A stretch of DNA of 64,000 bases from contig NZ_JAHYXK010000018.1 of NCBI RefSeq assembly GCF_019443125.1, positions 1 through 64,000 of the forward strand. The letters run 5' to 3'. This DNA comes from Pontibacter aydingkolensis. GTDB lineage: Bacteria > Bacteroidota > Bacteroidia > Cytophagales > Hymenobacteraceae. The translations under genes and the position numbers were made by a program. Of this stretch, positions 44,436 through 58,171 are shown piece after piece; the first letter of the stretch is position 1; each line of letters begins with the position of its first letter. The notes beneath the pieces are model-generated. The model saw nothing but the letters and a program-made list of their open reading frames with translations, was not told the origin of the DNA and searched no databases.

Positions 44436-45893
44436 TTATTTACTGGCCAGCAGCAGTAACGTGCCTGCAATACCAATTATTAAAGCAGCTGCCAGTGTAG
44501 GTAGCAGGTTGTTTGAAAGTATAGCTTTATAGTTTTTAACGTTGGCTACTGAGCCAGCTGCTATGATGTTAAACAGGCAAACAGCATTGCCAAGCGAAGC
44601 TCCTGCAAGCTGAAGTGCCAAAATAGTATTTGAGTTCAAGTTGAGGGAAAGAGCAGCCTCCTGCTGCGTTGCGCCGAATACAAGGTTTGATATAGTGGTG
44701 CTACCTGTAATAAATGTGCCTGTGACACCTATAAAAGGGGCAAACAAAGGATAAGCTTGCCCCAGCGAACCAAGCATCTCCGCTATATAGCGTACCATAG
44801 ACGGTTGCTCTACACCAGAGAAAATCATTAGCTGCGCAATGACTACGGAAGGGAAAAGCACAATAAATACATTTACCATTTTACTAAGCGGCTCACTCAG
44901 GTACAATGATCCTGCTTTTTTAAAGTAGGCAACTCCAACCCCCACCACAACAAAAGGTATGAACGGAGATTGCAAGGGCTTAATACCACCCCCTATTCCA
45001 GAATCAAACATGTTTTCGAATCTTAATTCCCAGGCAATCCATTGTTTTAGCGGCCAGAACAGTTTAGGCAAGAGGAGTAATAGGGCCAGTACCGCATAAG
45101 GCAGCCATGGCCATAGGTTTATAGCAGCACTACCCTTTTGCCGCAAGTATAAAACAGAAAGCCCCAGCATGGCCAGCGCAGAAAAAACAGTGGCAAGCTC
45201 AGGGGCAAACCAGGCCATGGCACAAAACGGAAGGATGATAAATGTATAAAGTACTGCAACCTGTCTTTTGTATACCATTGGCGCATGCTGCCTGTTTACC
45301 ATCCTAAATACAAGCCATAATACCAGCAACCCGGTTATACTTATCATTAAAGCAGCTATGATTCCAATAGCCTGTACCTCTGCAGCCGAAAGGTTAAGGG
45401 GCAATTGCAGGCCAATAAGTATGGGAGTGCCCACCGCACCAAACAAAGCAAACAAGCCATCAAAAAGCAGCACCACTGATACCGATAAAACTGCATCGAA
45501 ACCAAGCGCAATAAGTAGGAGCGGCACTATGGCCCCAGGCGTTCCAAAACCAGCCACACCCTCGAAAAAAGCAGTCAGGCCCAGGGCCAGCACAAAAAAA
45601 CGAATTTCTTTGGAAGGGTGAAGTTTATTAAGTGAGTCGGTTATTTGCTCCACCATGCCCATATGCGACATAATGCTGTAAAGGAAAACAGCTCCGAGCA
45701 CGATCAGCAGAATATTGACGGTAGTTAATAGCGCCACCCCCATTGCTCCCAGGTAATGTCCTATATCTGCTCCCCAGAAAAAAAACAGAACAGATGTTAC
45801 TGCCCAACTTACCATCACGGCAGGCTTTACTCCCTTTGTTAAAGAAACTACTACGAGTAAAATTATAGGCAGCAGCGAGAGCAGGTAAATCAT
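44436..45893 (-). CDS. L-lactate permease family transporter (LctP)
   Basis: 485 residues with about 12-14 hydrophobic helices. The family signature FFEGVAGFGTPGAIVPLLL is at about 110-128, and FITGSTTISNLVFG and LAGASLGNAVCLFNIIAAGSVANV near the C-terminus match the conserved permease motifs. It moves lactate (possibly glycolate) across the inner membrane with protons. It lies 47 bp downstream of a D-lactate dehydrogenase gene on the same strand, so one transcript probably couples lactate transport with oxidation or formation. Confidence 0.92.
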   Translation of the reverse strand: MIYLLSLLPIILLVVVSLTKGVKPAVMVSWAVTSVLFFFWGADIGHYLGAMGVALLTTVNILLIVLGAVFLYSIMSHMGMVEQITDSLNKLHPSKEIRFFVLALGLTAFFEGVAGFGTPGAIVPLLLIALGFDAVLSVSVVLLFDGLFALFGAVGTPILIGLQLPLNLSAAEVQAIGIIAALMISITGLLVLWLVFRMVNRQHAPMVYKRQVAVLYTFIILPFCAMAWFAPELATVFSALAMLGLSVLYLRQKGSAAINLWPWLPYAVLALLLLLPKLFWPLKQWIAWELRFENMFDSGIGGGIKPLQSPFIPFVVVGVGVAYFKKAGSLYLSEPLSKMVNVFIVLFPSVVIAQLMIFSGVEQPSMVRYIAEMLGSLGQAYPLFAPFIGVTGTFITGSTTISNLVFGATQQEAALSLNLNSNTILALQLAGASLGNAVCLFNIIAAGSVANVKNYKAILSNNLLPTLAAALIIGIAGTLLLLASK

Positions 45894-45940: not shown

Positions 45941-46933
45941 CTATGGCAGCACCTCATTTACAAGCACTTTCCCTTGTTCTAAGTCAGTTATGTTTTGTAG
46001 GGATATCTGGGCTATACTTTGCAAGGCATTGGTAGTAAAAAAAGCCTGATGGCCTGTTATCAGCACATTATTGAAGGACAGCAAACGCATGAATACGTCA
46101 TCCTGAATCACCTTATTGGACAAGTCCTCGAAAAACAGGTCTCCTTCTTCTTCGTACACGTCAAGCCCCAGGTAACTTATCTTTTCGGTTTTAAGCCCTT
46201 TAATTACAGCCTTGGTATCGATAATGGCGCCCCGGCTGGTATTGATCAGCATTACTCCATCCTTCATTTTAGCAATGGATTCATCATTGATCAGGTGGTA
46301 GGTTTGCGGTGTAAGCGGGCAATGCAGTGATATGATATCAGCTTGACGGTAGAGGCTATCCAGGTCAATCAACACCACGCCGATCTGCTCTGCTTCCTCA
46401 ATTTCAGTGATATCGTAGCCAAGCACTTTGCAACCGAAGCCTTTCAGAATGCGTGCTGTTACCAGGCCTATCTTACCTAACCCTATCAAACCAACTGTTC
46501 TGCCATGCAGGTCAAAACCCATAAGGCCGCTGAGTGCAAAATTACCTTCCCTGACGCGGTTATAAGCCCGATGGGTTTTACGGTTTAAGGTAAGTATAAG
46601 TGCCAAGGTGTGCTCAGCCACAGCATAAGGAGAATAAGCTGGCACACGCGCTACTTTAATCCCCTTTTCTTGGGCGGCAGTAAGATCTACGTTGTTGTAG
46701 CCGGCGCACCGTAAGGCTACAATTTTCACACCTGCATCAGTTAAAATCTGCAATACCTTTGCATTAACCGTATCGTTTACGAAAACGCATACGGCATCCT
46801 GCTCTTTTGCCAGCACAGCGGTGCTCTCGTTTAGCGGCACTTCCAAAAACTTGAGGTGATGCCTATGCTGCTTATTGGCATCCTTAAAGAAATGAATATC
46901 GTATGGTTTGGCGCTGAAGAATATAACATTCAT
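45941..46933 (-). CDS. D-2-hydroxyacid dehydrogenase, fermentative D-lactate dehydrogenase type
   Basis: 330 residues from ATG 46933 (MNVIFFSAKPYD); the frame extends 13 codons further to 46972 but the internal start fits the family. The NAD-binding domain has GLIGLGKIGLVTARIL; the active-site Arg lies in INTSRGAIIDT, the Glu in LDVYEEEGDLFFED and the His in ITGHQAFFTTNAL. The YEEE and FFED stretch is characteristic of LdhA-type D-lactate dehydrogenases that interconvert pyruvate and D-lactate with NADH. The following gene is a lactate permease. Because the permease family is named for L-lactate but can carry both isomers, the pairing is consistent. Confidence 0.9.
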   Translation of the reverse strand: MNVIFFSAKPYDIHFFKDANKQHRHHLKFLEVPLNESTAVLAKEQDAVCVFVNDTVNAKVLQILTDAGVKIVALRCAGYNNVDLTAAQEKGIKVARVPAYSPYAVAEHTLALILTLNRKTHRAYNRVREGNFALSGLMGFDLHGRTVGLIGLGKIGLVTARILKGFGCKVLGYDITEIEEAEQIGVVLIDLDSLYRQADIISLHCPLTPQTYHLINDESIAKMKDGVMLINTSRGAIIDTKAVIKGLKTEKISYLGLDVYEEEGDLFFEDLSNKVIQDDVFMRLLSFNNVLITGHQAFFTTNALQSIAQISLQNITDLEQGKVLVNEVLP

Positions 46934-47283
46934 ACTTCCGGGTTTTAAAGCTGGCAAGTGCCTGCAGTACAAAATATATCACATGGCAATACAGGCTTTA
47001 TCTCTCCTTATCCCACCATATCATGCTATACTTTACCCTACATAAGTTAATAGGTTACAATTACCTTTTCACTTGTCTATAGTATAACTACAGGTTGTTT
47101 ATTCTAATTATAAATCAATAATATTATCAAGCCAACACGTAGTATGATTTGGTAATTTTGGGAAACGGTAAGCTTGTAAGATGTGAAAAATCTAAAATTA
47201 AAGCTGCTGATGCTTAATTGTGTTGAAAGCAAAACCATTCAATCAATACACCGGCTTAAACTCCAGCAATGTAACCTAAAGCA
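46934..47283. other. spacer upstream of D-lactate dehydrogenase
   Basis: About 350 bp between the CapA gene end and the D-LDH start. It is AT-rich, with no gene-like frame. AAGTATA-type words occur near 47031 and 47083. No clear terminator or promoter motif is seen. Confidence 0.35.
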
Positions 47284-50524: not shown

Positions 50525-51280
50525 ATGGAAAAGCAGTTTCAGGGTAAAGTAGCCATTGTAACCGGTGCAAGCTTTGGTATAGGCAGGTCAACAGCGATCC
50601 TGTTTGCGGAGCACGGTGCCAAAGTTGCCGTAGTAGACTGGAAAGAAGACGATAAAACTGTAAACAGTATAAAGTCTGCAGGCGGAGAGGCCATTTTCAT
50701 AAAGTGCGATGTATCAAAAGACAGCGATGTGAAGGCCATGGTAGAGCAAACCATTAAAACCTTTGGCAGACTGGACTATGCCTTCAATAATGCAGGCATT
50801 GAGGGAGAATCGGCCCCTACGCATGAGGTTACTGAGGAGAACTTCGACAGGGTAATAGGCATAAATTTGAAAGGCGTATGGCAGTGTATGAAGCACCAGA
50901 TCCCGCATATGCTCCAACAGGGCAAAGGCGCCATCGTTAACTGCTCTTCCATTGCAGGCGTTATCGGGTTTCCGGGTATACCTATCTATACAGCTTCGAA
51001 ACATGCTGTAATCGGTATTACAAAAGCTGCGGCCCTGGAGTATGCGCAGCAAGGGATACGGGTGAATGCTGTTTGCCCGGGAGCAATTCAAACAGCCATG
51101 ATCGACAGGTTTATAGAGAAAAACAAACTCACAAAAGACGCTATGGTTAGTGGAGAGCCTATTGGCAGGTTTGGGGAGCCGGAAGAAATTGCCGAGGCTG
51201 CCATCTGGCTCTGTTCAGACGCATCCTCGTTTACTACTGGCCATGCCCTGGTAGTAGATGGCGGCTGGGTAGCGAGGTAA
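50525..51280 (+). CDS. short-chain dehydrogenase/reductase (glucose 1-dehydrogenase-like)
   Basis: 251 residues, classical SDR. Cofactor motif TGASFGIG at 13-20, NNAG at 88-91, catalytic Ser142, Tyr155 and Lys159 (GIPIYTASKHAV), and a typical C-terminus GHALVVDGGWVAR. Asp38 at the end of the second strand (VVDWK) suggests preference for NAD(H) over NADP(H). It oxidises or reduces an alcohol or ketone; many near relatives are annotated as glucose 1-dehydrogenases but the substrate is not fixed by sequence. It stands alone downstream of a 400-bp divergent spacer shared with HtrA. Confidence 0.9.
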   Translation: MEKQFQGKVAIVTGASFGIGRSTAILFAEHGAKVAVVDWKEDDKTVNSIKSAGGEAIFIKCDVSKDSDVKAMVEQTIKTFGRLDYAFNNAGIEGESAPTHEVTEENFDRVIGINLKGVWQCMKHQIPHMLQQGKGAIVNCSSIAGVIGFPGIPIYTASKHAVIGITKAAALEYAQQGIRVNAVCPGAIQTAMIDRFIEKNKLTKDAMVSGEPIGRFGEPEEIAEAAIWLCSDASSFTTGHALVVDGGWVAR

Positions 51281-52300: not shown

Positions 52301-53137
52301 ATGGAACAGCTGGTTATAACCAAAGCCTCTGGCGAGCATGTACTTTTCTCGGTTGGCAAACTCAAATTGTCTCTCCGTAAGTCCGGAGCCAGCGATGAGG
52401 TGATACAGGAAGTTCTCCGCTTACTGGAGCCTAAACTGTACGAAGGTATCCCCACAAAAAAAATATACAAACATGCATTCGCTATACTTAAAAAACTATC
52501 TAAAAGCACTGCTGCCAGGTATAGCTTAAAGCAAGGAGTTATGCAGTTGGGGCCATCCGGTTTCCCTTTCGAGAAATTTGTGGCGGAGCTACTCAATGTA
52601 CAGGGCTATACTACGGAGATCGGTGTTTTTATAGATGGCCAATGTGTGCGGCACGAAATTGACGTTGTTGCCTCTAAAGACGGAAAGCGCTACATGATTG
52701 AATGCAAGTACCATAACCTGCACCACAATAAATCGGATGTAAAGATCCCGATGTACATCCAGTCCAGGTTTAAGGACGTGGAGAAAGTATGGCCTTCTGA
52801 ACACGAGTTTGAGATACGTTTTCACCAGGGTTGGGTAGTAACCAATACACGTTTTACTGAAGATGCCATACGTTATGCCAGCTGCGCAAACCTGCACCTG
52901 GTTGGCTGGGACTTCCCGCATAAAGGCGGTATAAAAGATATGGTGGATTCTTTTGCGCTTTATCCCCTCACCTGCCTTACAACACTCTCCCATACCGAAA
53001 AACAGCACCTGCTCGACATGAGGGTGGTACTGTGCAAAGAGCTGCTCCACAACGAAGCACTGCTGCATAAAGCCGGTGTTCGGGATAAGCGGATCCATAG
53101 TGTGCTAGACGAAGTTGAGAATCTATGCGGCAGTTGA
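52301..53137 (+). CDS. ATP-cone and PD-(D/E)XK restriction-endonuclease-like protein
   Basis: 278 residues. The first 80 residues form an ATP-cone domain (LVITKASGEHVLFSVGKLKLSLRKSGAS, then TKKIYKHAFAILKK), the nucleotide-sensing module that controls ribonucleotide reductases and NrdR. Residues 85-225 form an Mrr-like restriction endonuclease fold with Asp121 and Glu134-Cys-Lys136 (HEIDVVASKDGKRYMIECKYHN), preceded by a helix with FEKFVAELLNVQGY. The catalytic Asp and ExK residues are intact. The C-terminal 50 residues are helical. It ends one base before the next start, so it leads a three-gene operon with an AMP-phosphorylase-type enzyme and PRPP synthase. A DNA or RNA nuclease under nucleotide control is an inference. 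Confidence 0.85.
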   Translation: MEQLVITKASGEHVLFSVGKLKLSLRKSGASDEVIQEVLRLLEPKLYEGIPTKKIYKHAFAILKKLSKSTAARYSLKQGVMQLGPSGFPFEKFVAELLNVQGYTTEIGVFIDGQCVRHEIDVVASKDGKRYMIECKYHNLHHNKSDVKIPMYIQSRFKDVEKVWPSEHEFEIRFHQGWVVTNTRFTEDAIRYASCANLHLVGWDFPHKGGIKDMVDSFALYPLTCLTTLSHTEKQHLLDMRVVLCKELLHNEALLHKAGVRDKRIHSVLDEVENLCGS

Positions 53138-53138
53138 T

Positions 53139-54650
53139 ATGGAGGAAAACAACAGTAACATCATGCGGCTCCGCAGACTGGGAATTGAAACACATACCGA
53201 AAAGATCATCTTTATGCGGGCCGACTCCCCGGTTTGCCGCTCAGAGGGTTTTACTGCCAACACACGGGTTTCGGTTAACTATGGCTCGCAAAGTATAATC
53301 GCCACGCTAAACGTGATCACATCCGAACTGATCGAGCATGGGGAGGCAGTTTTATCAGAAGAAGCATTTAATAAGCTCGGAGCAACAGAAGGCGATCTGA
53401 TCACAGTGACGCATATACAGCCTATACTTTCGTTTAGTGAAGTACGGGCAAAAATGTTTGGCAAAAAATTTAACGAGTCTGCCATTCAGCGGATTATTTC
53501 GGATGTAACAAAGGGCTTATACTCTAAAATTGAAATAGCCGCCTTTGTAACCGTTTGCTCCGGTGATAACCTGGCGCTTGATGAAGTTATCTATCTTACC
53601 AAAGCCATGATAAACTCTGGCTCTACCTTAGAATGGGACGAGCCTATGATTATAGATAAGCACTGCGTGGGAGGTTTGCCGGGAAACAGAACAACGCCCA
53701 TTATTGTACCCATTATTGCAGCAGCCGGCCTCATTATTCCAAAAACATCATCCAGGGCAATTACTTCTCCTGCCGGTACTGCCGATGCCATCGAAACCAT
53801 GACACCCGTAAACCTGTCGCTGGAACAGATAAAGGATGTGGTGCGGCAGGAAGGCGGTTGCATGACATGGGGCGGGGCTGTTAAGCTGAGCCCTGTAGAC
53901 GATGTGATCATTTCGGTAGAGAAAGCGCTTGACGTAGACAGTGCCGGCCAGATGATCGCTTCTGTACTGTCTAAAAAAGCAGCTGCCGGATCAACACATG
54001 TGGTGATCGACATTCCCGTTGGTGAAACAGCCAAAGTAAGGTCCAAAGAAGAGGCTTTTTTGCTGGAGTATTATTTAAGGGCTGTGGGGCTATCCATTGG
54101 GGTGGGAGTTGAAGTGATGATAACAGATGGTACGCAGCCGGTAGGGCGCGGCATTGGTCCTGCACTGGAGGCGATGGATGTTCTGTCAGTACTGCGCAAC
54201 GAACCCGATGCCCCCACCGACCTGAAAGACAGGGCTGTGCAGCTTGCCGGCCTTATGCTGGAGGTTGCAGGTGCTGCACCAAAAGGCAGAGGAACTGACC
54301 GTGCACTCGGCATATTGGAAAGCGGCCAGGCACTTGACAAATTCTACCGGATATGCGAGGCCCAGGGCGGGTTTAGGGAACCGGTGCCTGCAGCTATACA
54401 ACACGATGTGCTGGCCATGACCAGTGGTGTGGTACAAGCTATCGATAATCGCAAATTAGCCAAAGTAGGAAAGCTGGCGGGTGCACCAAAATCCGCGGGT
54501 GCAGGTATCCATTTCAAGGCCCCAATTGGGAAATATGTTAAGCAAGGAGAACCACTCTTCACGATCTATGCAGCTTCTCAGGGTGAGCTAAGCTATGCCC
54601 TCAACTTTTTGCACAGCTCTACTCAAATTGTTCAACTGGCAGCATTATGA
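53139..54650 (+). CDS. thymidine/AMP phosphorylase family enzyme (NMP phosphorylase type)
   Basis: 503 residues from ATG 53139, one base after the previous stop; an earlier in-frame ATG at 53115 overlaps the previous gene. The length and the N-terminal domain of about 85 residues ahead of the phosphorylase core match archaeal AMP phosphorylases and their bacterial relatives, not ordinary thymidine phosphorylases (about 430-440). Core motifs: IIDKHCVGGLPGNRTTPIIVPIIAAAGL, KTSSRAITSPAGTADAIE and GGCMTWGGAVKLSPVDD. The C-terminal domain has AGAGIHFKAPIGKYVKQGEPLFTIYA. In archaea this enzyme converts AMP and phosphate into adenine and ribose 1,5-bisphosphate. It overlaps the PRPP synthase start by four bases. 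Confidence 0.87.
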   Translation: MEENNSNIMRLRRLGIETHTEKIIFMRADSPVCRSEGFTANTRVSVNYGSQSIIATLNVITSELIEHGEAVLSEEAFNKLGATEGDLITVTHIQPILSFSEVRAKMFGKKFNESAIQRIISDVTKGLYSKIEIAAFVTVCSGDNLALDEVIYLTKAMINSGSTLEWDEPMIIDKHCVGGLPGNRTTPIIVPIIAAAGLIIPKTSSRAITSPAGTADAIETMTPVNLSLEQIKDVVRQEGGCMTWGGAVKLSPVDDVIISVEKALDVDSAGQMIASVLSKKAAAGSTHVVIDIPVGETAKVRSKEEAFLLEYYLRAVGLSIGVGVEVMITDGTQPVGRGIGPALEAMDVLSVLRNEPDAPTDLKDRAVQLAGLMLEVAGAAPKGRGTDRALGILESGQALDKFYRICEAQGGFREPVPAAIQHDVLAMTSGVVQAIDNRKLAKVGKLAGAPKSAGAGIHFKAPIGKYVKQGEPLFTIYAASQGELSYALNFLHSSTQIVQLAAL

Positions 54651-55546
54651 GCAGGATACTATTTGCCTTACCCGGAAACGAAGTGCTCACAGCGTCACTT
54701 GCAACTATACTTCAGGCCCAAGTTGGAGAGACAGCTATAAGACGATTCCCGGATGGGGAAAGCTATGTACGCATACTTTCGGACGTACACCAGAAACAGG
54801 TTATACTTGTCTGCACCCTTCACCAGCCTGATGCCAAGCTACTGCCTTTATACTTTCTTGCCAGAACGGCCCGTGAGCTGGGCGCTGCCAGTGTTTGCCT
54901 TGTTGCCCCATACCTTGCTTACATGCGCCAGGATATACAGTTCAATCCGGGAGAGGCGGTTACTTCCAGGTATTTTGCAGACCTCATTTCCGGCACAGCA
55001 AATAGTCTGATAACGATAGACCCGCACCTGCACCGCTTCCACCACATGGAGGAACTTTATACTATACCGGCCATGGCGCTGCATGTCGCTCCACCGCTGG
55101 CCAACTGGGTTAAAAGTAATATAGAGAAACCTTTGCTCATAGGTCCCGATGAAGAAAGTATGCAATGGGTGAAAGAGGTCGCCACCCTGGCCAATGCGTC
55201 GTACTTAATACTTAACAAAACAAGGCAGGGCGACAGAGAAGTACAGGTAACGCAGCCAGAAATGGCGGGATACCCGGATTATACCCCTGTACTTGTAGAT
55301 GATATTATATCCACGGCACGAACCATGATAGAAACGATACAGCAGTTAAAAAGGCTTAGCTCTATACCGCCTGTGTGCATAGGTGTACACGCTGTTTTCG
55401 CGGAAGGAGCCTACGAAGCCCTGCTACAGGCCGGAGCAGCGCAGGTAGTTACCTGCAATACCATTCCACATGTGTCAAACGGGATTAAAGTTGATGAATT
55501 GTTGGCTGAGGCGATACAAGCAACCGTTTCGCAACGAAAAGTATAA
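54647..55546 (+). CDS. ribose-phosphate pyrophosphokinase (PRPP synthase), archaeal-like short form
   Basis: 299 residues, shorter than the about 310-320 of the main bacterial enzyme. It should transfer pyrophosphate from ATP to ribose 5-phosphate, giving PRPP and AMP. The conserved regions are recognisable: FPDGESYVRI, QDIQFNPGEAVTSRYFADLI, DPHLHR, the flexible-loop-like LNKTRQGDREVQV and the PRPP loop VDDIISTARTM at 217-227. The sequence resembles archaeal-type and proteobacterial paralogues found beside the same phosphorylase. A housekeeping copy probably exists elsewhere in the genome. The ATG overlaps the phosphorylase stop (ATGA at 54647-54650), so the three genes are translated as a unit. 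Confidence 0.85.
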   Translation: MSRILFALPGNEVLTASLATILQAQVGETAIRRFPDGESYVRILSDVHQKQVILVCTLHQPDAKLLPLYFLARTARELGAASVCLVAPYLAYMRQDIQFNPGEAVTSRYFADLISGTANSLITIDPHLHRFHHMEELYTIPAMALHVAPPLANWVKSNIEKPLLIGPDEESMQWVKEVATLANASYLILNKTRQGDREVQVTQPEMAGYPDYTPVLVDDIISTARTMIETIQQLKRLSSIPPVCIGVHAVFAEGAYEALLQAGAAQVVTCNTIPHVSNGIKVDELLAEAIQATVSQRKV

Positions 55547-55753: not shown

Positions 55754-58171
55754 TCAGGAATAGACTGTAACACCTGACGCTTTCTCTGCCTGCAGCATGT
55801 TTTCAAGTCCTTTAAAAAAGGCGTCTGGATTAAAAGAGATGCTGTTGATGCCGTTCTCTACCAGGAAAGACGCATACTTTGGATAGTCGCTGGGAGCCTG
55901 GCCGCAGAGTCCAACTTTAGTGCCGGATTTCTTTGCTTTCTCAAGCGTCATCACGATCAGTTGCTGCACTGCCGGGTCGAATGGCGAAAAGATATCGCTT
56001 AGCAAACCTGAGTCCCGGTCTGCGCCCAGGCTAAGTTGCGTCAGGTCGTTGGAGCCGATCGAGAAACCATCGAATACTTCTGCAAACTCTTCAGCCAGCA
56101 ATGCATTACTTGGTATCTCTACCATTACGTATACTTCCAGTCCGTTATCACCCCGCTTTAAACCATACTCTTCCATTAAACTGATCACTTTTTTACCCTC
56201 GTCTACTGTTCTGCAGAAAGGGATCATCAGCTTTACATTGGTCAGGCCCATTTTTTCACGCACTTTCTTCATAGCGCGGCATTCCAGTTCAAAACCTTCC
56301 TGGTACAATGGATGATAGTAACGGGACGCGCCACGCAATCCGATCATGGGGTTAGATTCCTCCGGTTCAAACTGCCGGCCTCCTATCAGGTTCGCATATT
56401 CATTCGATTTAAAGTCACTCATGCGCACGATCACATCCTTGGGGTAAAATGCAGCTGCGATGATACCAGTTGCCTCTGCCAGCTTATCTACAAAATAGTC
56501 TTCTTTGTTGGAGAAATGATGCGTGAGTTGCTCTATCTTTTCCCTTGCGTCCTTATCCTCTACCTTCTCAAAATGTTTCAGCGCCATGGGGTGTATCTGT
56601 ATCGAGTTATTAATGATAAACTCCATCCGCATCAGCCCCACTCCATCGTTTGGCAGGAAAGAATATTTGAAGGCCTGCTCCGGATCGCCAAGTATAAGCA
56701 TGGCTTTGGTCTGAGGGGTACCCAGTTTGCTCATGTCCGTCTTTTTTTCGTCCCACTCCAATACTCCCTCGTACACATAGCCGGTTTCCCCTCCTGCCGT
56801 TGATACGGTAACCTGGTGCCCGTCCTGTATAGTTTGCGTGGCATTTTCGGTACCAAGTACGGCAACAGCTCCCACTTCGCGGGCTACAATGGCGGCATGG
56901 CTGGTGCGGCCACCCTGTTCTGTGATAATAGCGATAGCTTTTTTCAGGATTGGGTCCCAGTCGGGATCGGTTTTACGGGTAACGAGCACCTCTCCTTCCT
57001 GCAGCTTGTCAATTTCTTTAGGTGAGTTGAGTATGCGGGCCACACCGGTTACAATGCGGTTACTGAGACCTATGCCCGAGCAAAGTACTTTACCTTCTTC
57101 CTGTAAAGTATACTCCGTAAAAAATGCCTGGTCTTTATGTTGGCTTTGCACTGTTTCCGGCCTGGCCTGCACTATAAACAGCTTTCCGGTTATACCATCC
57201 TTTGCCCATTCTACATCCATGGGTTGTTTGTAATGTTCTTCAATCCTTTTGCCCCACTTTGCGAGCTGAATTACTTCGTCATCCTGCAGCACAAACACTT
57301 CCTGCTTATCAGGTTCTGTATCCAGGTTTATGATGGCATCTGTTGGTAATTGCAACTCTCCCTCTTTCTTTTCAGCATATACCATGGTTTTGGCCTTGCT
57401 GCCAAGCTTGCGGGAGATGATGGGCTGCGCTGCTTTATCCAGCATTGGCTTAAAAACCACGAACTCATCGGTATTAACTGAGCCCTGTACAATGTTCTCA
57501 CCTAGCCCCCAGGAGCCTGAGATTACGACCACATTTTCGAAACCGGTATCCGGGTCCAGGGTAAACATCACCCCTGAGCAGGCCCTATCAGACCTTACCA
57601 TCGTTTGCACTCCTACAGATAAAGCCACCTGCATGTGCTCAAATCCATTGTCTACTCTATACTTGATGGCTCTGTTCGTGAAAAGTGATGCGTAGCTGTG
57701 GTGGCAGGCTTTGTAAAGGTTATTCAGGCCGCTTACGTTCAGGTAAGTTTCCAGCTGACCTGCAAAACTGGCGGTGGGCAGGTCTTCGGCAGTGGCGCTG
57801 CTTCGTACGGCCAGTGATACCTCATCGCCATATTCCTTTTTAAGGTAATTGTATCCGGTTTCGATTTCCTTTCTTATCTCCTCCGGAAATCTGGCAGAAA
57901 GTATAATATCCCTTGCCTTCTCACCTACTTCGTTTAGATTATTAAATTGTTTTGTATCGAGGCTGTCAAGTATAGATGTCAGCTGCTCCTTCAGGTTGTT
58001 CTGCTCCAGGAAGTACCAGTAGGCTTCCGAGGTAGTCGCATAACCATCCGGCACCTGTATGCCTTCCGGGTTAAGCTGGTTATACATTTCGCCCAGCGAT
58101 GCATTCTTTCCGCCCACTTTGCTCAGGTCGTTGTAACTAATATCTTTAAACAGCTTAATGTAGTTTGCCAT
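55754..58171 (-). CDS. ppsA: phosphoenolpyruvate synthase PpsA
   Basis: 805 residues, full length. It converts pyruvate and ATP to phosphoenolpyruvate, AMP and phosphate for gluconeogenesis. The ATP-grasp domain (about 1-340) opens with VGGKNASLGEMYNQL and includes SSATAEDLPTASFAGQLETYLNV. The swivelling phosphohistidine domain has His in TEQGGRTSHAAIVAREVGAVAV (about 415-436), and the TIM-barrel PEP-binding domain has GLRGASRYY, FSIGSNDLTQLSLGADRDS and GLCGQAPSDYPKYASFLVENGI. The start ATG 58171 gives MANYIKLFKDISYND, typical of the family. It is convergent with the PRPP synthase operon across the 126-bp inverted repeat. Confidence 0.96.
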   Translation of the reverse strand: MANYIKLFKDISYNDLSKVGGKNASLGEMYNQLNPEGIQVPDGYATTSEAYWYFLEQNNLKEQLTSILDSLDTKQFNNLNEVGEKARDIILSARFPEEIRKEIETGYNYLKKEYGDEVSLAVRSSATAEDLPTASFAGQLETYLNVSGLNNLYKACHHSYASLFTNRAIKYRVDNGFEHMQVALSVGVQTMVRSDRACSGVMFTLDPDTGFENVVVISGSWGLGENIVQGSVNTDEFVVFKPMLDKAAQPIISRKLGSKAKTMVYAEKKEGELQLPTDAIINLDTEPDKQEVFVLQDDEVIQLAKWGKRIEEHYKQPMDVEWAKDGITGKLFIVQARPETVQSQHKDQAFFTEYTLQEEGKVLCSGIGLSNRIVTGVARILNSPKEIDKLQEGEVLVTRKTDPDWDPILKKAIAIITEQGGRTSHAAIVAREVGAVAVLGTENATQTIQDGHQVTVSTAGGETGYVYEGVLEWDEKKTDMSKLGTPQTKAMLILGDPEQAFKYSFLPNDGVGLMRMEFIINNSIQIHPMALKHFEKVEDKDAREKIEQLTHHFSNKEDYFVDKLAEATGIIAAAFYPKDVIVRMSDFKSNEYANLIGGRQFEPEESNPMIGLRGASRYYHPLYQEGFELECRAMKKVREKMGLTNVKLMIPFCRTVDEGKKVISLMEEYGLKRGDNGLEVYVMVEIPSNALLAEEFAEVFDGFSIGSNDLTQLSLGADRDSGLLSDIFSPFDPAVQQLIVMTLEKAKKSGTKVGLCGQAPSDYPKYASFLVENGINSISFNPDAFFKGLENMLQAEKASGVTVYS

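Follow-up and report, generated by a model that had tools for sequence, protein, structure and literature searches.

At positions 52,301 to 55,546 of a 64,000-nucleotide stretch of the Pontibacter aydingkolensis genome (contig NZ_JAHYXK010000018.1, contig C10 of the 4.72 Mb host assembly G000; hereafter the window) lie three consecutive genes for a predicted ATP-cone nuclease (NUC), an AMP-phosphorylase-like enzyme (AMPP) and a predicted phosphoribosyl pyrophosphate (PRPP) synthase (PRS). We assign a probability of roughly 0.5 to the reading that this trio is a compact form of a widespread bacterial module which salvages nucleoside monophosphates (NMPs), likeliest RNA-derived, under oxygen or energy shortage by predicted phosphorolysis. 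In the proposed scheme, RNases (a beta-CASP RNase and possibly NUC) would yield NMPs from RNA, AMPP would convert NMP and phosphate to the free base and ribose 1,5-bisphosphate (R15P), and the dedicated PRS would connect the ribose phosphate pool with PRPP and adenylates, by which bases could be re-salvaged or ribose sent to ribose 5-phosphate (R5P) and central metabolism. RNase and fermentation genes are recurrent neighbours of the module.

52301..53137, + strand: NUC, 278 amino acids, with predicted ATP-cone, PD-(D/E)XK (Mrr-like) nuclease and AF1548-like C-terminal domains; optional member of the module
52304..52531, + strand: ATP-cone domain of NUC, residues 2-77, placed by structure superposition and family-wide PF03477 matches
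52550..52909, + strand: nuclease domain of NUC, about residues 84-203, placed by profile match, alignment and model superposition
52661-52663, 52700-52702 and 52706-52708, + strand: predicted catalytic codons of NUC for D121, E134 and K136
53139..54650, + strand: AMPP, AMP-phosphorylase-like enzyme for nucleoside monophosphates; other annotations name it 'thymidine phosphorylase family'
54647..55546, + strand: PRS, second, class III-like ribose-phosphate diphosphokinase (PRK07199)

Predicted functions of the three proteins

NUC and AMPP are separated by 1 bp, and AMPP and PRS overlap by 4 bp (ATGA). The longest open reading frame of AMPP (53115-54650) begins with TTG, and an in-frame ATG at 53139 yields the 1-bp gap after NUC. 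This three-gene arrangement had been described in the first-pass annotation, made from the sequence without database searches, and its coordinates agree with ours. That annotation had also read the three products as a protein with an ATP-cone and an intact PD-(D/E)XK site, a relative of AMP phosphorylases and an enzyme of PRPP synthase type, all of which the analyses below bear out.

AMPP exceeds the cut-offs of PRK04350 (659 bits) and TIGR02645 (595 bits), and its model (predicted local distance difference test, pLDDT, 83) is matched over its full length by AMP phosphorylase 4ga5 (template modelling scores 0.91/0.93 over 500 columns with 38% identity; residues 7-501 aligned, Z 42.6). Thymidine and pyrimidine nucleoside phosphorylase structures align only from residue 94-97. 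Judging by its model, AMPP is composed of a phosphorylase core and an AMPP-specific N-terminal domain. Moreover, an arginine of human thymidine phosphorylase, which we take to be the base-binding Arg202, is absent from AMPP, where 'svek' aligns with human 'aaRd' and a gap lies nearby; the 4ga5 sequence likewise has no arginine at this position. Thymidine phosphorylase was rejected as the likeliest function of AMPP because the N-terminal domain is present and the base-binding arginine is missing. According to PMC8376864, the AMP phosphorylase of Thermococcus kodakarensis accepts all natural NMPs as substrates. In one genome of the phylum sample described below (G040), AMPP is shortened to 289 amino acids (L180:7097-7966), and that genome has no PRK07199-type PRS over the cut-off.

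PRS scores 400 bits against PRK07199 (cut-off 322), and its nearest PDB entry is 1u9y (E 8.8e-45), an M. jannaschii PRPP synthase. Residues F34/D36/E38, R94-Q95-D96, D125/H127, K191/R193 and D218/D219/T226, which we take to be the substrate and catalytic motifs, are invariant in 16 of 16 aligned rows, and by these conserved motifs PRS is predicted to be a class III PRPP synthase. A second PRS of the ordinary (canonical) type is encoded on contig C22 of the host genome.

NUC passes the cut-offs of Mrr_cat (7.9e-9) and AF1548-like_C (1.6e-5), while its match to the ATP-cone family PF03477 is weak (E 0.0034, 18.3 bits against a gathering cut-off of 25.8). The cone is backed by 62 of 67 NUC homologues, which match PF03477 at E<=0.001, and by the AlphaFold model (pLDDT 93), in which residues 2-77 superpose on the ATP-cones of ribonucleotide reductase (RNR) and NrdR (Z about 9-10.6, root-mean-square deviation 1.7-2.2 over 70-77 residues). 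In an alignment of 128 rows (105 distinct sequences), the cone residues K8 and K20 are kept in all rows and T52 and Y56 in 126. As modelled, the N-terminal domain of NUC has the ATP-cone fold. The D121/E134/K136 triad is likewise invariant in the 128 rows and in all 67 members of the smaller family set. The sequence of AF1548 (PDB 1y88) matches NUC with E 1.5e-35, and model residues 84-278 superpose on it with Z 23.5 over 182 residues; the nuclease part further resembles the repair endonuclease 2vld (Z 11.0) and the CRISPR-ancillary nucleases Card1/Can2/Cdn1 (Z 9.7-10.5). By model and alignment, NUC is an AF1548-related PD-(D/E)XK nuclease with its D...ExK triad placed within the nuclease fold, and the ATP level probably gates this predicted activity through the ATP-cone. 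A literature search on AF1548 gave nothing relevant, judging by titles and abstract openings.

Some further observations concern NUC and its relatives. In a relative, an enzyme of glucoamylase type also carries a cone-like domain, which suggests an energy sensor for mobilising reserves. A LOG/SLOG-type gene adjoins or lies near NUC in 3 of 41 further loci (L181:6578-7330, L190:9496-10260 and L197:5016-5780), and both genes tested (L181 and L190) match PF03641; their known relatives cleave nucleoside monophosphates. In Pontibacter indicus (L012/L091, genome G009), NUC carries one in-frame TAG and no AMPP was found in the genome.

Gene neighbourhoods, occurrence and regulation in relatives

The neighbourhood survey began from NUC and covered the best 80 of 161 confirmed loci in named genomes; since these were ranked by similarity, close relatives are over-represented. 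A beta-CASP RNase gene lies within three genes downstream of NUC in 62 of the 80 loci, and AMPP lies downstream in 54. NUC, beta-CASP, AMPP and PRS stand all together in 45 loci; in two more, beta-CASP and AMPP are accompanied by a PRS that is displaced or broken; AMPP-PRS lacks beta-CASP in seven (all Pontibacter), beta-CASP is the only one of the three in 15, ten have none, and one (L018) gave no readable arrangement. AMPP and PRS are co-stranded in 53 of the 54 AMPP loci, with a gap of at most 20 bp in 50 of these 53, and PRS is outside its expected slot in only two (in two pieces in L024 and 342 bp farther in L078). The beta-CASP protein matches the Beta-Casp and RMMBL families and also, with a score below the cut-off, archaeal aCPSF1. 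The recurrence of this gene order across many genomes argues against chance.

AMPP and PRS form the tight core of the module; a beta-CASP RNase usually accompanies them, and NUC is optional. The neighbourhood and co-occurrence counts indicate that the primary partner of NUC is the beta-CASP RNase and that of AMPP is PRS; in the window, NUC is joined to the AMPP-PRS pair. The expectation of the first-pass annotation that the trio is conserved together thus stood as far as the genes do recur together, and had to be amended in that the core leaves NUC separable.

Among 296 evenly drawn Bacteroidota genomes, host genome included, NUC is present in 49 and AMPP over the cut-off in three, plus the shortened copy in G040. 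Over-cut-off PRK07199-type PRS was found in exactly the three AMPP genomes, in a search that covered the 49 NUC-bearing genomes and not the other 247. All three AMPP genomes carry NUC (p 0.004), one of the three being the host itself. Within 25 genomes of the same genus, eight have NUC and AMPP, five NUC only (one with an in-frame stop), one AMPP only and 11 neither, a co-occurrence with Fisher p 0.011 when relatedness is ignored. NUC and AMPP-PRS lie on separate contigs in G022, and G006 has AMPP-PRS without NUC. In 41 further NUC loci, taken from 58 listed places of the phylum sample, chosen apart from AMPP-linked copies and many of one genus, beta-CASP is directly next in 24 and AMPP lies within five genes in none. 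A 32-row NUC tree has 11 changes of AMPP presence; because L093 and L095, labelled AMPP-negative, are short loci from genomes with AMPP, only the 14 Pontibacter rows were used, which by themselves give five changes with several weak forks. L004 in turn is AMPP-negative only locally, as it corresponds to G022 with AMPP on another contig. NUC is separable from AMPP-PRS, and it is under strong constraint also where the pair is absent: the closest pairs that could be measured give dN/dS values of about 0.05-0.13 whether or not AMPP adjoins; these values are rough, and several pairs were saturated.

NUC occurs in merely two of 72,556 plasmid records. Ten plasmid regions, all with AMPP, carry PRS in eight, a beta-CASP relative in eight (in L163 only its C-terminal piece) and NUC in two; of the eight without NUC, six have PRS, five of them with a full-length beta-CASP relative (one on the opposite strand) and one with a piece. 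Among the 60 listed of 115 AMPP plasmid records, PRS lies within 7 kb in at least 38, beta-CASP in at least 35 and both in at least 31. The plasmid of Criblamydia sequanensis (L157), a chlamydia relative, bears in one row genes for phosphoketolase, glycogen phosphorylase, NUC, beta-CASP, AMPP, PRS and acetate kinase, with overlapping gene ends from NUC through beta-CASP and AMPP to PRS; a site-specific integrase gene follows two genes past acetate kinase. The order on a Pontibacter actiniarum plasmid is dehydrogenase-NUC-beta-CASP-AMPP-PRS, and the Flavobacteriaceae island around the cluster includes phosphofructokinase, class I aldolase, type II glyceraldehyde-3-phosphate dehydrogenase, 2-hydroxyacid dehydrogenase, a short-chain dehydrogenase/reductase (SDR), universal stress proteins and a P-type ATPase.

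A link to oxygen shortage comes from Bradyrhizobium diazoefficiens. At 0.5% oxygen, Table 2 of PMC6515984 gives log2 2.9 and fold 15.4 for bll3115 (metallo-beta-lactamase, MBL), 4.4 and 7.7 for bll3116 (ribose-phosphate pyrophosphokinase) and 2.1 and 5.1 for bll3117 (thymidine phosphorylase family), columns which we take as protein and transcript, respectively. According to Table 2 of PMC9104804, the genes bll3117-bll3116-bll3115 make up one predicted operon, for which a putative FixK2 box is given at -74; without fixK2 the fold changes are -6.6 for bll3117 and -30.6 for bll3115, with about -10 for the phosphoketolase-acetate kinase pair bll2518-bll2517 in the same table. The first-pass annotation knew of no description of such a module. 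The published Bradyrhizobium operon, whose annotated products are the same and which depends on FixK2 and rises in microoxia, speaks against that, and what stands is that no publication giving a function to a bacterial AMPP-PRS-MBL operon was found in the open-licence PMC literature.

Other genes of the window were compared for context:

55754..58171, - strand: ppsA (pyruvate, water dikinase by profile score), convergent neighbour judged to lie outside the module
50525..51280, + strand: SDR dehydrogenase, context only; 43% identity to the SDR of the flavobacterial island, a weak likeness within a very large superfamily
45941..46972, - strand: 2-hydroxyacid (lactate-type) dehydrogenase, context only; 54% identity to the flavobacterial-island enzyme (2-Hacid_dh, L021 homologue)

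Beside the latter, positions 44436-45893 appear by eye to encode an L-lactate permease-like protein; a lactate permease is also near AMPP on a Croceicoccus plasmid.

The salvage reading and its alternatives

Several points weigh against the salvage reading. The RNase gene is absent from the window operon, the beta-CASP gene of the host being on contig C41, and 2 of the 10 plasmid AMPP regions (L161 and L166) are without PRS and beta-CASP at hand; in L166 these genes lie about 18 kb and 13 kb from AMPP. AMPP reaches 490 bits against the AMP_phos equivalog TIGR03327, whose cut-off is 535; as it passes only the broader TIGR02645 and PRK04350, we call it AMP-phosphorylase-like. As to oxygen, bll3115-bll3117 stand in the expanded list of PMC6515984 (2019; log2 >=1 at both levels), outside the 62 statistically selected proteins, and the table of that paper gives them no value for soybean bacteroids and does not mark them as targets of FixK2. 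That bll3117 belongs to the same AMPP family is suggested by names and gene order. In Pontibacter, no FNR-like box was found near the operon (the six matches in the window do not exceed the chance level), nor was a Bacteroidetes-type promoter match near it or, by eye, a motif shared upstream in 13 Pontibacter sequences, so that low-oxygen control here rests on relatives.

The fate of R15P is a further difficulty. Across the whole host assembly, neither R15P isomerase (PF01008) nor RuBisCO (PF00016) was matched at E<=0.001, which extends what had first been said of these genes; phosphoketolase (XFP) was unmatched in the host genome, and no PhnN was over the cut-off, the sole match (40.7 bits against 156) probably representing guanylate kinase or another related kinase. 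A recognised downstream route for R15P is therefore missing from the host genome, and the full archaeal AMP pathway, the phosphoketolase route and the PhnN route from R15P to PRPP were each rejected for it on these grounds. On a Pacificitalea plasmid (L161:7215-9341), a PhnN-annotated protein with a partial AMPP/TrpD-like phosphorylase domain is encoded beside nadC. This fusion may provide an NMP-to-PRPP route in one protein, and the PhnN route may operate outside the host genome. In the host, R15P may be consumed by an unrecognised enzyme, AMPP may work partly in reverse, or the PRS paralogue of the operon may act on R15P.

The last option has its own attraction. The reaction R15P + AMP = R5P + ADP corresponds to PRPP-synthase chemistry with ADP replacing ATP, and a PRS acting in this way, or run as PRPP + AMP -> R5P + ATP, would let the operon conserve the energy of NMP glycosidic bonds. 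AMPP and PRK07199-type PRS are nearly inseparable in Bacteroidota, the host has a canonical-type PRS besides, the catalytic residues of PRS are intact, the known R15P consumers were not found in the host genome, and phosphoketolase and acetate kinase adjoin the module in Criblamydia. However, the motifs of its active site are those of ordinary class III PRPP synthases, and we know of no precedent for such an enzyme acting on R15P and AMP; we consider it improbable that PRS closes the gap in this manner. Similarly improbable is the wider idea of an energy-conserving RNA fermentation, in which NUC would gate RNA cutting, AMPP would turn NMPs into R15P and PRS would convert R15P and AMP to R5P and ADP.

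A more conservative view would make NUC an independent nuclease that merely adjoins the AMPP-PRS pair, the three genes being no single functional unit. Of the 49 NUC-bearing Bacteroidota genomes, 46 are without over-cut-off AMPP, another point against the salvage reading, and the company of NUC in the 41 further loci, the arrangements in G022 and G006 and the similar dN/dS with or without AMPP all agree with independence. Against it stand the 54 of 80 NUC loci with NUC upstream of AMPP, several with coupled gene ends, and the co-occurrence both in the genus and in the 296 genomes, and we regard it as unlikely on balance. The first-pass annotation had favoured a salvage or adenylate-balance module with ppsA as a partner releasing AMP. 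Nucleotide salvage remains the likeliest of these; a device in which AMPP removes the AMP from PRS and ppsA, with NUC as effector arm, seems distinctly unlikely. The ATP-cone fold of NUC would suit it, and the PRPP synthase reaction does release AMP. Moreover, ppsA adjoins the trio in six of the seven Pontibacter AMPP loci, and in 4 of the 41 further loci, where AMPP is not nearby, it is found at most five genes from NUC. But those six, all Pontibacter, are the only ones of the 54 AMPP loci with ppsA near AMPP; it was not found near AMPP in the other 47 AMPP loci or the ten plasmid regions, lies on the opposite strand, and is retained where AMPP-PRS is missing (L009-L011). Its rarity near AMPP and its persistence without the pair leave the AMP-balance argument weak and do not support ppsA as a functional partner, and the recurrent company of the module consists instead of RNase and fermentation genes. 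It is very improbable, finally, that the cassette works in phage defence or abortive infection, with a nucleotide-gated nuclease acting together with nucleotide depletion. The nuclease domain of NUC does resemble Card1/Can2/Cdn1 effectors, and NUC gives weak hits to PADLOC models, among them ZorD (8.5e-7, 25 bits); yet neither AMPP nor PRS has a PADLOC hit at E<=0.01, the sensor is of ATP-cone rather than CARF type, the neighbours are mainly metabolic or transport genes, the gene order flanking the cluster is conserved in many Pontibacter loci, and toxin-antitoxin-type genes were seen only several genes off, on the Criblamydia plasmid.

Relation to known systems and significance

The proposed NMP salvage by this module has its nearest counterpart in the archaeal NMP shunt (pentose bisphosphate pathway) with the AMP phosphorylase TK0352, to which AMPP is alike over its full length, N-terminal domain included. 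The host genome differs in that R15P isomerase and RuBisCO are unmatched and AMPP stays below the AMP_phos cut-off, and bacterial AMPP differs in being paired with a PRPP synthase and often with a beta-CASP RNase and the nuclease. The bacterial set is a variant of the archaeal shunt and not a new kind of system. The B. diazoefficiens genes share with it the three annotated products, the predicted operon and the microoxic rise, with homology judged from names; as tabulated, their predicted operon is without the ATP-cone nuclease, whereas the Pontibacter operon is without the RNase and a detectable FNR-like box. By description, the low-oxygen-activated (lxa) locus of Burkholderia cenocepacia, with the metallo-beta-lactamase superfamily protein M0300 and phosphofructokinase M0311, can be set beside it (PMC6127331), and the main text of that paper does not contain the terms thymidine phosphorylase, phosphoribosyl or pyrophosphokinase. 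AF1548, a protein of unknown function, shares the nuclease and C-terminal domains of NUC, its solved chain covering NUC residues 84-278 with the cone outside, and the ATP-cone proteins RNR, NrdR and Leeuwenhoekiella NrdB share the N-terminal fold, which in NUC is instead joined to a PD-(D/E)XK nuclease.

These comparisons indicate that many bacteria retain an NMP phosphorylase of archaeal type together with a PRPP synthase of its own and an RNase; in this host it stands without the enzymes that follow it in archaea. NUC, with its ATP-cone and PD-(D/E)XK domains, is a candidate for a nuclease gated by ATP. Should the doubtful RNA-fermentation idea be true, the organism would gain ADP or ATP and pentose phosphate from its own RNA in anoxia, in a genome where R15P isomerase, RuBisCO and PhnN were not found. 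The three genes make testable how bacteria may use R15P and whether they may feed on their own RNA once respiration fails.

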